Below, in pieces: positions 53,965 to 64,000 of a DNA stretch of 64,000 nucleotides; positions within the stretch are counted from its first letter, which is position 1, and the number at the start of each line of letters is the position of its first letter. Both the position numbers and the translations under genes were made by a program. This DNA comes from Pseudomonas mandelii (GTDB taxonomy: Bacteria; Pseudomonadota; Gammaproteobacteria; Pseudomonadales; Pseudomonadaceae), in assembly GCF_900106065.1 (NCBI RefSeq), contig NZ_LT629796.1, positions 2,206,001 to 2,270,000 of the forward strand, written 5' to 3'. The notes under the pieces were generated by a model, which saw nothing but the letters and a program-made list of their open reading frames with translations, was not told the DNA's origin and ran no database searches.

Positions 53965-54113
53965 CTAGGATCTTTCCTGGTCCTTCTGCCAAGCTAGATA
54001 AGTGTTCACTGGAGGGCGTCGGCTGAAGTGTTGCCGTAGCCCATCAAACAAAGAGTTCGCCAACGCTTGCTGATGGCGTGCGCTGACTAACCGCTGGCAG
54101 TCCTGTGCGTTAG
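53965..54113 (-). pseudogene. 3' fragment of an AmiB/AmiC-type amidase gene
   Basis: The frame encodes NAQDCQRLVSARHQQALANS, LFDGLRQHFSRRPPV and a short tail ending ERS. This is the normal C-terminus of a periplasmic N-acetylmuramoyl-L-alanine amidase, after the ETGFIS motif. That motif is at the cut end of the 5' fragment (63191-64000), now 9 kb away. Joining the halves through one TTAG gives ETGFIS then NAQDCQR with no frame change. Confidence 0.93.
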
Positions 54114-55303
54114 GGATGGTCTGAAGTAGCCATGTATTTCCCCGGCATACCACCTAGCGCAACTTTTAAACTCGCCAAATGATCAAAAAACAATCAATTC
54201 GACGAGTATTTCTTACGTTTTCGCCACCCGGACCCCACTCCGGTGGCCATTTCCCGCATTACAGGCGCACCTCTCCTGCATTCGTCAGTAAATGTCGGCG
54301 CGCCATCCACAGGTTCGACAGAGCGAACAGTGTCACCAGTTGCGCCGTGTTTTTGGCCAAGCCGCGAAAGCGCACCTTGGTGTAACCGAACTGGCGCTTG
54401 ATTACCCGGAACGGATGCTCGACCTTGGCGCGCACCTGAGCCTTGGCCTTTTCAATCTTGCGCTTGGCTTTGTACAGCACGCTGCGCTTATCGAGTTTTT
54501 TGTAGGTGCTGCGGCGTGCCGCCACCTGCCAGATAACTTCACGTCCTTCATGCTCGGGCCGCTTTTCGACACCGGTGTAGCCTGCATCGGCGCAGACCAC
54601 GTTTTCGTCGCCATGCAGCAATTTGTCCACCTGGGTGACATCCGCCACATTGGCCGCCGTGCCCACTACGCTGTGCACCAGACCCGATTCGTCATCGGCG
54701 CCGATGTGGGCCTTCATGCCAAAATAATACTGGTTTCCCTTCTTGGTCTGGTGCATTTCCGGGTCGCGCTTGCCGTCCTTGTTCTTGGTCGAACTGGGCG
54801 CATTGATCAGCGTTGCATCGACGATGGTGCCCTGGCGCAGCGACAGGCCGCGGTCGCCCAGATAGCCATTGATGACAGCGAGGATGCCGGCCGCCAGCTC
54901 GTGTTTCTCCAGCAAGCGGCGGAAGTTGAGAATGGTGGTTTCGTCGGGGATGCGCTCCAGGTTCAGCCCGGCAAACTGGCGCAGGATCGTGGTTTCGTAC
55001 AGCGCTTCCTCCATCGCTGGATCGCTGTAGCCGAACCAGTTCTGCAGCAGATGCACACGCAGCATCGCCATCAACGGGTAGGCCGGACGGCCACCTTCAC
55101 CTTTCGGATAATGTGGCTCGATCAAAGCAATCAAGCCCTTCCACGGCACCACCCGATCCATCTCGATCAGGAACAACTCCTTGCGGGTTTGCTTGCGCTT
55201 GCCAGCGTACTCGGCGTCGGCGAAGGTCATCTGCTTCATCGGGAAACTCGGTGGGTGGGGTCGCGGTATTTTGCCAAATCAGAAAGTCTTTTTCAGAGTT
55301 TCC
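54114..55303 (-). mobile_element. IS5-family insertion sequence, copy 2 (left arm of composite)
   Basis: 1190 bp and apparently identical to copy 1 at 37219-38408. The outer end is GGATGGTCTGAAGTAG next to TTAG; the inner end is next to CTAG. Unequal flanks show it did not insert here alone. Confidence 0.93.
54259..55239 (-). CDS. IS5-family DDE transposase (IS copy 2)
   Basis: 326 residues, identical to the transposase of copy 1 (same DDE core: GTIVDATLINAPSS, VVCADAGYTGVEKR, KAKVEHPFRVIK). It appears intact and could mobilise all three IS copies and the composite. Confidence 0.95.
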   Translation of the reverse strand: MKQMTFADAEYAGKRKQTRKELFLIEMDRVVPWKGLIALIEPHYPKGEGGRPAYPLMAMLRVHLLQNWFGYSDPAMEEALYETTILRQFAGLNLERIPDETTILNFRRLLEKHELAAGILAVINGYLGDRGLSLRQGTIVDATLINAPSSTKNKDGKRDPEMHQTKKGNQYYFGMKAHIGADDESGLVHSVVGTAANVADVTQVDKLLHGDENVVCADAGYTGVEKRPEHEGREVIWQVAARRSTYKKLDKRSVLYKAKRKIEKAKAQVRAKVEHPFRVIKRQFGYTKVRFRGLAKNTAQLVTLFALSNLWMARRHLLTNAGEVRL

Positions 55304-55346
55304 CTAGGCTGACAAGCCAAGCGCTGGATCGCAACCATCCATCACC

Positions 55347-56216
55347 TTATCCAGCTAGATCTGCCTCCTCCAATAAGTGCCGCACAAATCCCGGCGGGTG
55401 CAGATTTCCGGGAGGTTTGCGCCAGATCAGTTGGAGACGCTTTTCAAGCCCCGGGATGGGAAGAGCTACCAGCGCGCCACTGCGAACTTCGTCTTGTACT
55501 GCGGAAGCCATCACCAACGACACGCCGAGTCCCGCCCTCACTGCTTGTTTGACTGCCTCGGTGCTGCCTAGCTGCATACCGCTGCGAGGCACGCCCAGTT
55601 CGCCAAAGTATTCGGTCAGAAGCCGTCCGGTACCGCTACCCGGTTCACCTCCCAGCATCGGCAGGTCCACCAGACGATCACGTTCTATGCACCCTGCTTC
55701 AGCCAGCGCATGGTCGGGGCTGACGATAAGCACCAGCGGCTCGACCCGCCAGAGGCGGTGTTCGAAGTCGGGGTGAGGTAGCCACCATTCCATGATCGCG
55801 GCGTCGAGCTGGCCCGCCAGTAGCTGGTCGGCCACATCCGGGTTGGCGGCGATGCGCAGATCCACCTCGCCCCTCTCATTTGCGGTCGTCAGATAGTTGC
55901 GCACGAATGGCTGGAGAAGGTAGGTGCCGATGTTGGAGCTGGCCCCGACGCGCTCACGATTGCCATGCAGGGCTTCTAGCGCCCGGGCGTGCATGTCGAG
56001 CAAGGCGGTCGCATGCGGCATGAAGGCCAGCGCCCGTGTGGTAGGCTGGCAGCCGCTACGACTGCGCTGCACCAGCGTTACGCCGACCTGCTCTTCAAGC
56101 TTCTGCAAGTGCTGCGACACCGTCGGCTGGGCCAGCCCCAACGCCCTCGCCGCGCTCTGAAAACTGCCTGTTTGAACGATCGCTACCAGGCTCTTCAGCC
56201 AGACCGGATTCAACAT
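55347..56216 (-). CDS. ptxE: LysR-type regulator PtxE
   Basis: A 289-residue LysR-type regulator, last gene of the ptx operon. The N-terminal winged helix-turn-helix is [42 protein letters not shown], followed by a substrate-binding-like effector domain. The ATG at 56216 overlaps the ptxD stop by 7 bp and gives the standard LysR start; the open frame continues upstream into ptxD. Its role in phosphite regulation is not well settled even in the type operon (recalled from P. stutzeri WM88). Confidence 0.9.
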
Positions 56217-62514: not shown

Positions 62515-62537
62515 CGCGAGAGTGTCACGTACGGTTC
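62504..62537 (+). ncRNA. Group II intron domain V
   Basis: 34 nt beginning GAGCCGTATGACGCGAG and ending CACGTACGGTTC. The two ends pair (GAGCCGTA with TACGGTTC), with the AGC triad and an internal bulge, as in bacterial domain V, the catalytic heart of the ribozyme. Confidence 0.92.
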
Positions 62538-63190
62538 TGCGAGCGGCTGCGGGGGCAGTTCCCGCGGCCGACTCACCACTTCGGCATGAAGGCGCACATC
62601 GGTGTCGATGATGAGTCGGGCTTGGTGCACAGCGTGGTGGGCACGGCGGCCAACGTGGCCGATGTCACCCAGGTCGATAAGCTGCTGCACGGCGATGAGA
62701 ACATGGTCGGTGCCGACGCGGGTTACACCGGCGTCGAGAAACGCCCTGAACATGAAGGCCGGGGGGTCATCTGGCAGATCGCCGCCCGCCGTAGTACTTA
62801 CAAGAAGCTTGATAAGCGCAGTGCTTTGTACAAAGCCAAGCGCAAGATTGAGAAGGCCAAGGCTCAGGTACGAGCCAAGGTCGAGCATCCGTTCCGGGTG
62901 ATCAAGCGCCAGTTCGGTTATGTGAAGGTGCGCTTCCGTGGTCTGGCGAAGAACACGGCGCAACTGATGACGCTGTTCGCGCTGTCGAACCTGTGGATGG
63001 CGCGCCGACATTTACTGGCGAATGCAGGAGAGGTGCGCCTGTAATGTGGAAAATGGCTGCCGCGAGGTGCTCGCGGCGGCTAAAAACACAGAAATAAGCG
63101 GGTGATCTGAGCGTTTTTGATCGATTTGCCGCTTTTAAAATCGGCAGGGGCTGAAGTCAGCCAGAAATACACAACTACTTCAGACCATCC

Positions 63191-64000
63191 TTAGAGATGA
63201 ATCCAGTTTCAACCAGGATTGACGGTACGTCTGGCGACTTAAGTACGGCAAAGCCCGCCTGCTCCACACGCTTCTGGTGCAAAGTGGTGATGCCCGCCAA
63301 ACTTCTCAGTACGGAGTGGCCCAGTTCCAGGCTCGTTGCGACTGTAGCGCTCATCGACATGTCGAGAATCACTCCTGCCAGCATGGGGTCCTTATCTTTG
63401 AGTGCGAGGCTTTTGGTCGTACCGAGTAACTCGGCGCCGTTCTCCTTCTGCGCGAGCCAGCGCGCAGTAGTGGACGTGGCTCCACCTTCCGATAGCGCAT
63501 AGATCGACGCTCCGGAGGCCGTGCGCCGAGGCGCGGCGTCCGCGTGTATGGAAATGAAGATATCGGCATTGTGTTGGCGAGCAATCTCCACCCGCTTGCG
63601 TAACGGTACGTAAACATCGCTGTCGCGTACGAGTCGCACGGTAAACCCCTTTTCCCGCTCGATCCGTTTGGCCAACTGCCGAGCAATTGACAGCACCACA
63701 TCTTTTTCCCGCTCGCCATTGGCCCCGACTGCTCCAGGGTCTTTACCGCCATGCCCTGGGTCTACCACGACGATGATGTCGCGCTTTGGATGAGCCGAAT
63801 CATTAAGCACAACCTGCGGTGCAGCCGGCTGTATTGCCGGGGATGCCGAGTTGGAAATATCCAGCACTAAGCGATGCCCCTGTGCCTGTTCAGGTGCCAG
63901 CATGAAGGTATTCAACTGCACGGGACCTATCAGGTCCAGGACAATCCGCGTTCCTGTACCTTGAGGCCCTGAACGTATAGCGCGGATTGGCATGTTACCC
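63191..64000 (-). pseudogene. 5' fragment of an AmiB/AmiC-type N-acetylmuramoyl-L-alanine amidase (runs off window)
   Basis: The minus-strand frame is open to the window edge. It contains part of the AMIN domain (TRIVLDLIGPVQLNTFMLAP) and then the zinc amidase_3 domain: IIVVVDPGHGGKDPGAVGAN, REKDVVLSIARQLAKRIERE, SIHADAAPRR, LELGHSVLRSL and SILVETGFIS. At ETGFIS it runs into the IS and adds KDGLK before a stop. The enzyme cleaves septal peptidoglycan. The truncated form keeps the catalytic His/Glu ligands but lacks the last helices, so it is probably inactive. It continues at 54113. Confidence 0.92.

Follow-up and report, generated by a model that had tools for sequence, protein, structure and literature searches.

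An operon for phosphite oxidation lies between two insertion sequences within an amidase gene

We analysed a 64,000-nucleotide stretch of DNA from Pseudomonas mandelii (contig NZ_LT629796.1, positions 2,206,001 to 2,270,000; termed the window), which comes from a single-contig Pseudomonas genome of 7.04 Mb. Towards its right end an amidase gene is interrupted by a unit that measures 9,077 bp from tip to tip. It consists of two inverted insertion sequence (IS) elements of the IS5 family (IS1384 type), termed IS-L and IS-R, which surround the phosphite operon ptxABCDE. We are highly confident that this unit is a genuine IS5-family composite transposon, which moved into the amidase gene as one piece and thereby duplicated TTAG. 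The locus is made up as follows:

53965-54109, reverse strand: 3' part of the interrupted amidase gene, seen in the sequence and by comparison with an uninterrupted amidase
54110-54113: left 4-bp target duplication, TTAG
54114-55303, reverse strand: IS-L, IS5 family (IS1384 type), 1,190 bp
55304-55307: inner left CTAG
60145-60148: inner right CTAG, termed site A
60149-63190, forward strand: IS-R, 3,042 bp (1,192 bp without its intron), an IS5-family element distinct from IS-L
63191-63194: right 4-bp target duplication, TTAG
63195-63993, reverse strand: 5' part of the interrupted amidase (Amidase_3, Pfam), whose frame now enters IS-R and ends ETGFISKDGLK

An earlier reading of this DNA, made from the sequence only, had placed TTAG at both outer ends and CTAG at both inner junctions, and these positions are exact to the base. 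It had also stated that the two amidase fragments fuse in frame once the unit and one TTAG are deleted. In-silico removal indeed results in a single open amidase frame through ETGFIS-NAQDCQR. That IS copies bracket ptx is likewise confirmed; the sequence-only reading omitted, however, that the two copies diverge (82-91% identity) and that IS-R contains a group II intron.

The name IS1384 is taken from the annotation of the IS copy in an identical unit on a P. mandelii plasmid. The first 16 bases of the outer tips of IS-L and IS-R are identical. Over their length the elements are 90.7% identical in one half and 81.7% in the other, which rules out that they are duplicates of one element; the composite was therefore assembled from two different relatives. 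IS-L encodes an intact transposase of 326 amino acids (54259-55239), which belongs to the IS5 family (NF033581 with 364.8 bits, cut-off 140; DDE_Tnp_1 by Pfam).

The cargo of the unit is a complete operon for phosphite uptake and oxidation:

55347-56216, reverse strand: ptxE, LysR-type regulator, named after the annotation of identical copies (LysR models match below their NCBIfam cut-offs)
56210-57220, reverse strand: ptxD, phosphite (phosphonate) dehydrogenase, from PDB matches and catalytic residues
57229-58068, reverse strand: ptxC, phosphite transporter permease (TIGR01097 above cut-off)
58065-58928, reverse strand: ptxB, phosphite-binding protein (PDB 5o2j PtxB, E 1.4e-173)
58925-59752, reverse strand: ptxA, transporter ATPase (TIGR02315 above cut-off)

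PtxA, PtxB and PtxC score above the NCBIfam cut-offs of phosphonate/phosphite-type transporter models; no NCBIfam model passes its cut-off with PtxD or PtxE. Among the solved structures in the PDB, phosphite dehydrogenases match PtxD with a best E of 4e-216, and PtxD has K76, R237, E266, H292 and R301, which we take to be the catalytic positions. The operon is predicted from its sequence to be expressed and to allow growth on phosphite. A candidate Pho box upstream of ptxA was discarded, as the best 18-mer agrees with the consensus at 10 of 14 positions and 125 of 1000 shuffled sequences reach the same value.

The target site is found empty in nature

The sequence-only reading predicted that an uninterrupted amidase with the reconstituted junction should exist, and this is the case. 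The amidase of genome G268 (locus L124) has no interruption and contains neither ptx nor either of the two IS copies. Aligned with it, the amidase halves of the window are 92.1% and 94.1% (152 bases) identical, and the two matches abut exactly. The junction in G268 reads ...cagtcctgtgtg TTAG agatgaatccag..., with a single TTAG, and the corresponding window junctions read ...cagtcctgtgcg TTAG on one side and TTAG agatgaatccag... on the other. Moreover, the cargo around the G268 amidase is about 88% identical to that of the window, so G268 has the same cargo region without the unit. The amidase search gave a match in 229 of 398 genomes of the genus. It yielded 30 loci, among them that of the window, and the 29 others (L124-L152) all read VETGFISN at the junction; L132 has a stop within 40 residues upstream of the junction in that frame.

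A second empty site corresponds to the landing place of the copy in Pseudomonas sp. ANT_H4 (L048, on the same contig as L003), which is uninterrupted on plasmid p1 (NZ_CP146204.1) of Pseudomonas sp. 4810-S13. The p1 site carries one CTAA, and the ANT_H4 copy is flanked by CTAA in the frame of the locus. To the left of the site the two sequences are 89.9% identical (159 bases), and to the right of it they are 91.8% identical (1,393 bases).

The complete unit is present at other sites

Beyond the window, seven distinct fetched loci hold both outer tips, as defined by an exact 16-base match. Together with the window they represent six flank pairs. The amidase pair is common to the window, plasmid p1 (L034) and P. 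abietaniphila (L046), and the other five belong to a P. mandelii plasmid (L032), ANT_H4 (L048), P. iridis (L049), a P. putida plasmid (L033) and a P. aeruginosa plasmid (L036). In the frame of the unit the flanks are TTAG/TTAG for the amidase pair, L032 and L048, and CTAA/CTAA for L049. As the sequence-only reading had anticipated, the unit thus occurs elsewhere with matching 4-bp duplications (four of the six flank pairs), one of which is CTAA rather than TTAG. The window, L032 and L048 carry copies of the unit that are 100% identical over 9,085 bp, and the flanks of these three copies are unrelated.

The L032 insertion (flanks 6804-6814 and 15892-15907) lies at the TTAG in the centre of a GCCC-TTAG-GGGC inverted repeat, which is followed by a T run and looks like a transcription terminator.

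Transposition as a unit explains the data better than its alternatives

How much weight the flanking 4-mers can bear depends on the target preference of the IS. The window itself contains a further copy, which fixes the IS boundaries independently:

37219-38408, reverse strand: third IS1384-type copy, solo, with CTAA on both sides; it cuts a second TniQ gene

We listed solo copies in the fetched loci, requiring exact tip motifs and leaving out L062, which is part of a ptx unit. Eight of these nine copies have equal flanking 4-mers, the exception being L022. The nine matched solos (the eight fetched ones and the window's own) use CTAG three times, CTAA three times, TTAG twice and CTTT once. Eight of nine matched 4-mers are therefore CTAG, CTAA or TTAG, i.e. 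a restricted target set, and under the observed usage two random sites would agree by chance with a frequency of 23/81, or about 0.28.

Several points weigh against movement of the block as a unit or limit what can be claimed for it. First, since the IS prefers few targets, matching outer 4-mers by themselves are weak evidence of unit transposition. This also applies to the CTAG pair at the inner junctions, and we reject the 4-bp duplication alone as proof. Second, two of the six flank pairs, L033 and L036, are mismatched (TTAG/CTAG). They share their right flank, which is also found in P. grimontii (L053), and they fit, short of proof, a single insertion whose left side was later exchanged by IS recombination. 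Third, no empty site was recovered for two of the insertions. For L032, the plasmid search with the flank gave only its own record, and in the 398 genus genomes there was one 72% match, which stops 30 bases before the junction. For L049, the plasmid search gave nothing, and the flank was found in one of the 398 genomes, G004 (P. rhodesiae, contigs of L005/L050), which appears to share the L049 insertion. Fourth, we classified 52 distinct ptx loci of all origins, window excluded (60 rows less two window rows and six duplicates), and none of them has an IS-free version of the left inner junction. Finally, the movement of the unit is deduced from sequences.

One alternative is that two IS copies inserted independently on the two sides of a ptx operon already present in the amidase, in which case the block never moved as a unit here. 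The divergence of the two copies and the chance agreement of 4-mers calculated above would suit this scenario. It is refuted at this locus by the G268 amidase, which is empty of ptx and of both IS copies, unless G268 is the product of a precise excision. Moreover, the unit including its outer IS ends is 100% identical at unrelated flanks, and a second empty site exists. We therefore regard independent insertion as barely credible.

Alternatively, the unit might have spread by homologous recombination between resident IS1384-type copies instead of by transposition. Such copies are frequent in the genomes and plasmids examined, and the mismatched flank pairs L033 and L036 look like products of this process, which may have been their route. 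Recombination would, however, leave a resident IS at the empty site, whereas both empty sites are IS-free and have a single 4-mer, so that it was not the route at these two sites. The matching duplications in most flank pairs are at odds with it as well. As a general explanation it is highly improbable.

Transposition of the unit is lifted far above chance by the natural empty sites and by the identical 9,085-bp unit with unrelated flanks. The claim of the sequence-only reading that ptxABCDE moved as one IS-flanked unit thus stands on these two lines of evidence, the duplication which it had cited being insufficient alone. In this explanation, two related but different IS1384-type elements in inverted orientation bracket the complete phosphite uptake and oxidation operon. 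The 9,077-bp block moved via its two outer ends into the amidase gene, with duplication of TTAG. The transposase of IS-L, the sole uninterrupted one in the unit, may have acted in trans on the IS-R end.

The inner junctions reveal two forms of the ptx region

In the 52 classified loci the left junction is uniform: wherever the left probe is present (38 loci), the IS tip is found at the same CTAG. The right junction exists in two forms. In 17 loci, including L038 where the IS has the opposite orientation, the IS tip is at site A. In 19 others it is at a second CTAG, 119 bp nearer to ptxA:

60026-60029: site B, CTAG, to which the IS is joined in the other form of the ptx region; uninterrupted in the window

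Four of the 19 site-B loci (L043, L047, L054 and L055) keep just the first IS bases. L061 and L067 match neither site A nor site B, being divergent or cut by a contig end.

The remaining group comprises 14 of the 52 loci, which lack the left probe as well as any IS tip at site A or B. Site B is uninterrupted in ten of these 14, two of which (L075 and L076) have an uninterrupted site A too; hence there are still operons whose inner right sites are empty. Most of the IS-free loci diverge at 55370 and have a common other flank. We read them as ancestral or separate forms and not as a refutation of the composite, because the complete unit ends exactly at the IS tips in all six flank pairs.

Three further observations concern these junctions. 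The stretch 55308-55369 of the window, between IS-L and the end of ptxE, is missing from the IS-free ptx loci seen. The two CTAG sites upstream of ptxA, A and B, are each joined to an IS tip in a different set of lineages, at one site in either orientation (L038), and thus form an IS hot spot. Moreover, IS110-type IS1383 copies appear inside the IS1384-type tip beside ptx in L040 (annotated) and in L038 and L051 (from the junction sequence), so that the IS1384-type tip would appear to be a target of IS1383.

A group II intron resides in the transposase gene of IS-R

The difference in length between IS-R and its uninterrupted relatives, from which the intron boundaries were deduced, is due to the following features:

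60728-62577, forward strand: group II intron, 1,850 bp, beginning GTGTG, in sense orientation in the IS-R transposase gene (Rfam and maturase matches)
61246-62514, forward strand: ltrA, reverse transcriptase/maturase (TIGR04416, 418.5 bits)

The intron RNA is recognised by Rfam (RF01999 with 112.7 bits, RF00029 with 58.2 bits). Exon 1 of the transposase gene is 514 nt long and exon 2 continues in the phase that fits it, so that a spliced transcript would have an open transposase frame. L037 and L062 have a right IS that lacks the intron. The P. aeruginosa plasmid pNY5506-SIM (L036) has this 1,850-bp intron, 100% identical, in IS-L as well, at the homologous position, the two copies lying at 3577-5426 and 11429-13276. 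The IS-L sequence on both sides of the extra copy is retained (outer side, 616 bases at 100%; inner side, 8.5 kb at 99.94%), which disfavours gene conversion. The second intron is best read as the likely result of homing from IS-R into IS-L, the alternative being a misassembly.

It is conceivable, if rather doubtful, that the mobility of the unit is gated by the intron in the IS-R transposase gene. If this were true, every transposase of the unit in L036 would need intron splicing, and the composite would be partly tamed by, or spread together with, its own retroelement.

The composite is nested in a Tn7-like element

The sequence-only reading had also put ptx on a Tn7-like element. This element is real, and 5-bp duplications flank it at two sites, one beside glmS in the window (ACACT) and the other on plasmid p1 (TGAAG). 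Its features are:

29574-29578: left 5-bp target duplication, ACACT, just downstream of glmS (which ends at 29554); the right copy follows 93750, beyond the window
29579-93750 (window part to 64000), forward strand: Tn7-like element, 64,172 bp, with tips TGGTT...AACCA; the right tip is outside the window
29838-30692, forward strand: tnsA (Pfam TnsA_N)
30689-32857, forward strand: tnsB (Pfam Mu-transpos_C)
32854-34314, forward strand: tnsC/TniB (Pfam TniB/AAA_22)
34229-35998, forward strand: tnsD/TniQ (Pfam TnsD and TniQ)

The left end has three related repeats (such as CATAGATTGACAC) at 29590-29644 and the right end three in inverted orientation at 93603-93737; they are putative TnsB-binding sites. 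On p1 the same element occupies 66320-138683 with TGAAG on both sides. The two copies are 99.98-100% identical in long matching blocks, and both contain the composite. Three solo IS1384 insertions differ between them, one present only in the window (37219) and two only on p1; the IS therefore moved after the two copies had parted, and the composite is common to both. Furthermore, 21 kb of the carrier around the composite have a 99.99% match in P. abietaniphila.

Besides ptx, the Tn7-like element carries genes for copper, chromate and other metals. The solo IS1384 copy at 37219-38408 is absent from the p1 element, which has an extra stretch of about 7 kb (about 109262-116253) with a mer operon and IS66 genes. 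The matches on either side of this stretch have 8 bases in common, suggestive of a duplication of 8 bp.

The intact composite is one of several vehicles of ptx

Of the 72,556 records in the plasmid collection, 629 contain some part of the 4,851-bp ptx region, and in 612 the coverage is at least 80%; Klebsiella accounts for 575 of the 629. Among 40 of the 629 rows that were listed, nine reach site A and 31 stop at window positions 60027-60033, as a site-B junction would give. A 111-bp marker segment for site A is present in nine plasmid records, all from Pseudomonas. Some part of the composite, in many cases the IS only, is matched by 1,039 plasmid records. Ten of these have one place covering at least 80% of it, and six of the ten places cover 100%. 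Four enterobacterial loci among those classified (L035, L041, L044 and L058) differ from the window unit in that all of them have the site-B junction and no exact outer tips. An exact outer tip was found in one of the 19 site-B loci (L040, Pseudomonas) within the fetched stretches, some of which are short contigs. Thus, the intact composite is proven as a vehicle for Pseudomonas, in Enterobacterales it is probably not what carries most of the ptx copies, and the site-B form seems to have lost the outer IS ends and to have to spread by other means.

These numbers bear on the claim of the sequence-only reading that the unit provides a vehicle for the spread of phosphite oxidation. The vehicle is real, but it is a minority one, with nine site-A records against 629 plasmid records with ptx. 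They also invite the view that the IS pair is mostly a passenger, with the Tn7-like element and its plasmids as the main ptx vehicle and only rare movement of the composite. In line with this, the whole 64-kb element with the composite is found both at glmS in the window and on p1, the carrier around the composite is conserved in P. abietaniphila, and most plasmid copies of ptx differ from the unit. The units in L032, L048 and L049, however, are complete without Tn7-like flanks, with no further carrier match above 1,500 bp in the 17-21 kb fetched, and so the unit has also moved by itself. On balance we consider the passenger view unlikely, while granting it appreciable weight.

With the composite and its empty sites inside a Tn7-like element with duplications of its own, the ptx vehicle is resolved to the base at two nested levels. 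This nested vehicle explains the presence of the intact five-gene trait in several Pseudomonas species at 99.97-100% identity. Moreover, two forms of ptx can now be told apart: the intact composite, which in the plasmid records was found only in Pseudomonas, and the site-B form, which is common in enterobacterial plasmid records. The unit is also a natural cassette, whose transposition is testable with growth on phosphite as the selection.

Comparison with known systems

The ability to use phosphite is thought to spread horizontally. Tn5 and Tn10 are the classical composite transposons, in which inverted IS copies use their outer ends and produce a short target duplication. The window unit differs from them in its IS5-family ends, its metabolic cargo and the intron in one arm.

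A number of mobile ptx regions have been published. PAGI-7 of Pseudomonas aeruginosa holds a predicted ptxABCDE operon and resembles the present case in that the operon is on an island with mobility-associated genes; unlike for the window unit, the passage on it mentions neither IS ends nor duplications (PMC12024412). The blaKPC-2 plasmid pBIC1a has a ptx region with regulator, phosphite dehydrogenase and transporter in the same gene order, with mobile-element genes alongside (PMC6286996). Acinetobacter plasmids such as pCl107 also have ptxABCDE near transposase genes, but their Ptx proteins are just 38-64% identical to those of P. stutzeri and represent a separate lineage (PMC10117892). Finally, ptxABCDE has been reported from P. 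aeruginosa of hospital water (PMC12847981) and phosphite genes from p727-IMP (PMC7070040). In titles, the beginnings of abstracts and some passages, a body of text mostly outside the subscription literature, we found no published description of an IS-bracketed ptx transposon. The general mobility of ptx is already known, and the present analysis adds the resolved transposon.

Also related are the composite transposons for chlorate reduction (Clark et al. 2013, as described in PMC10746228), in which, according to that summary, the operon for a redox trait is likewise mobilised as a block. They differ from the window unit in the trait, and the latter is built from two different IS relatives, one of which contains a group II intron, and lies inside a Tn7-like element.

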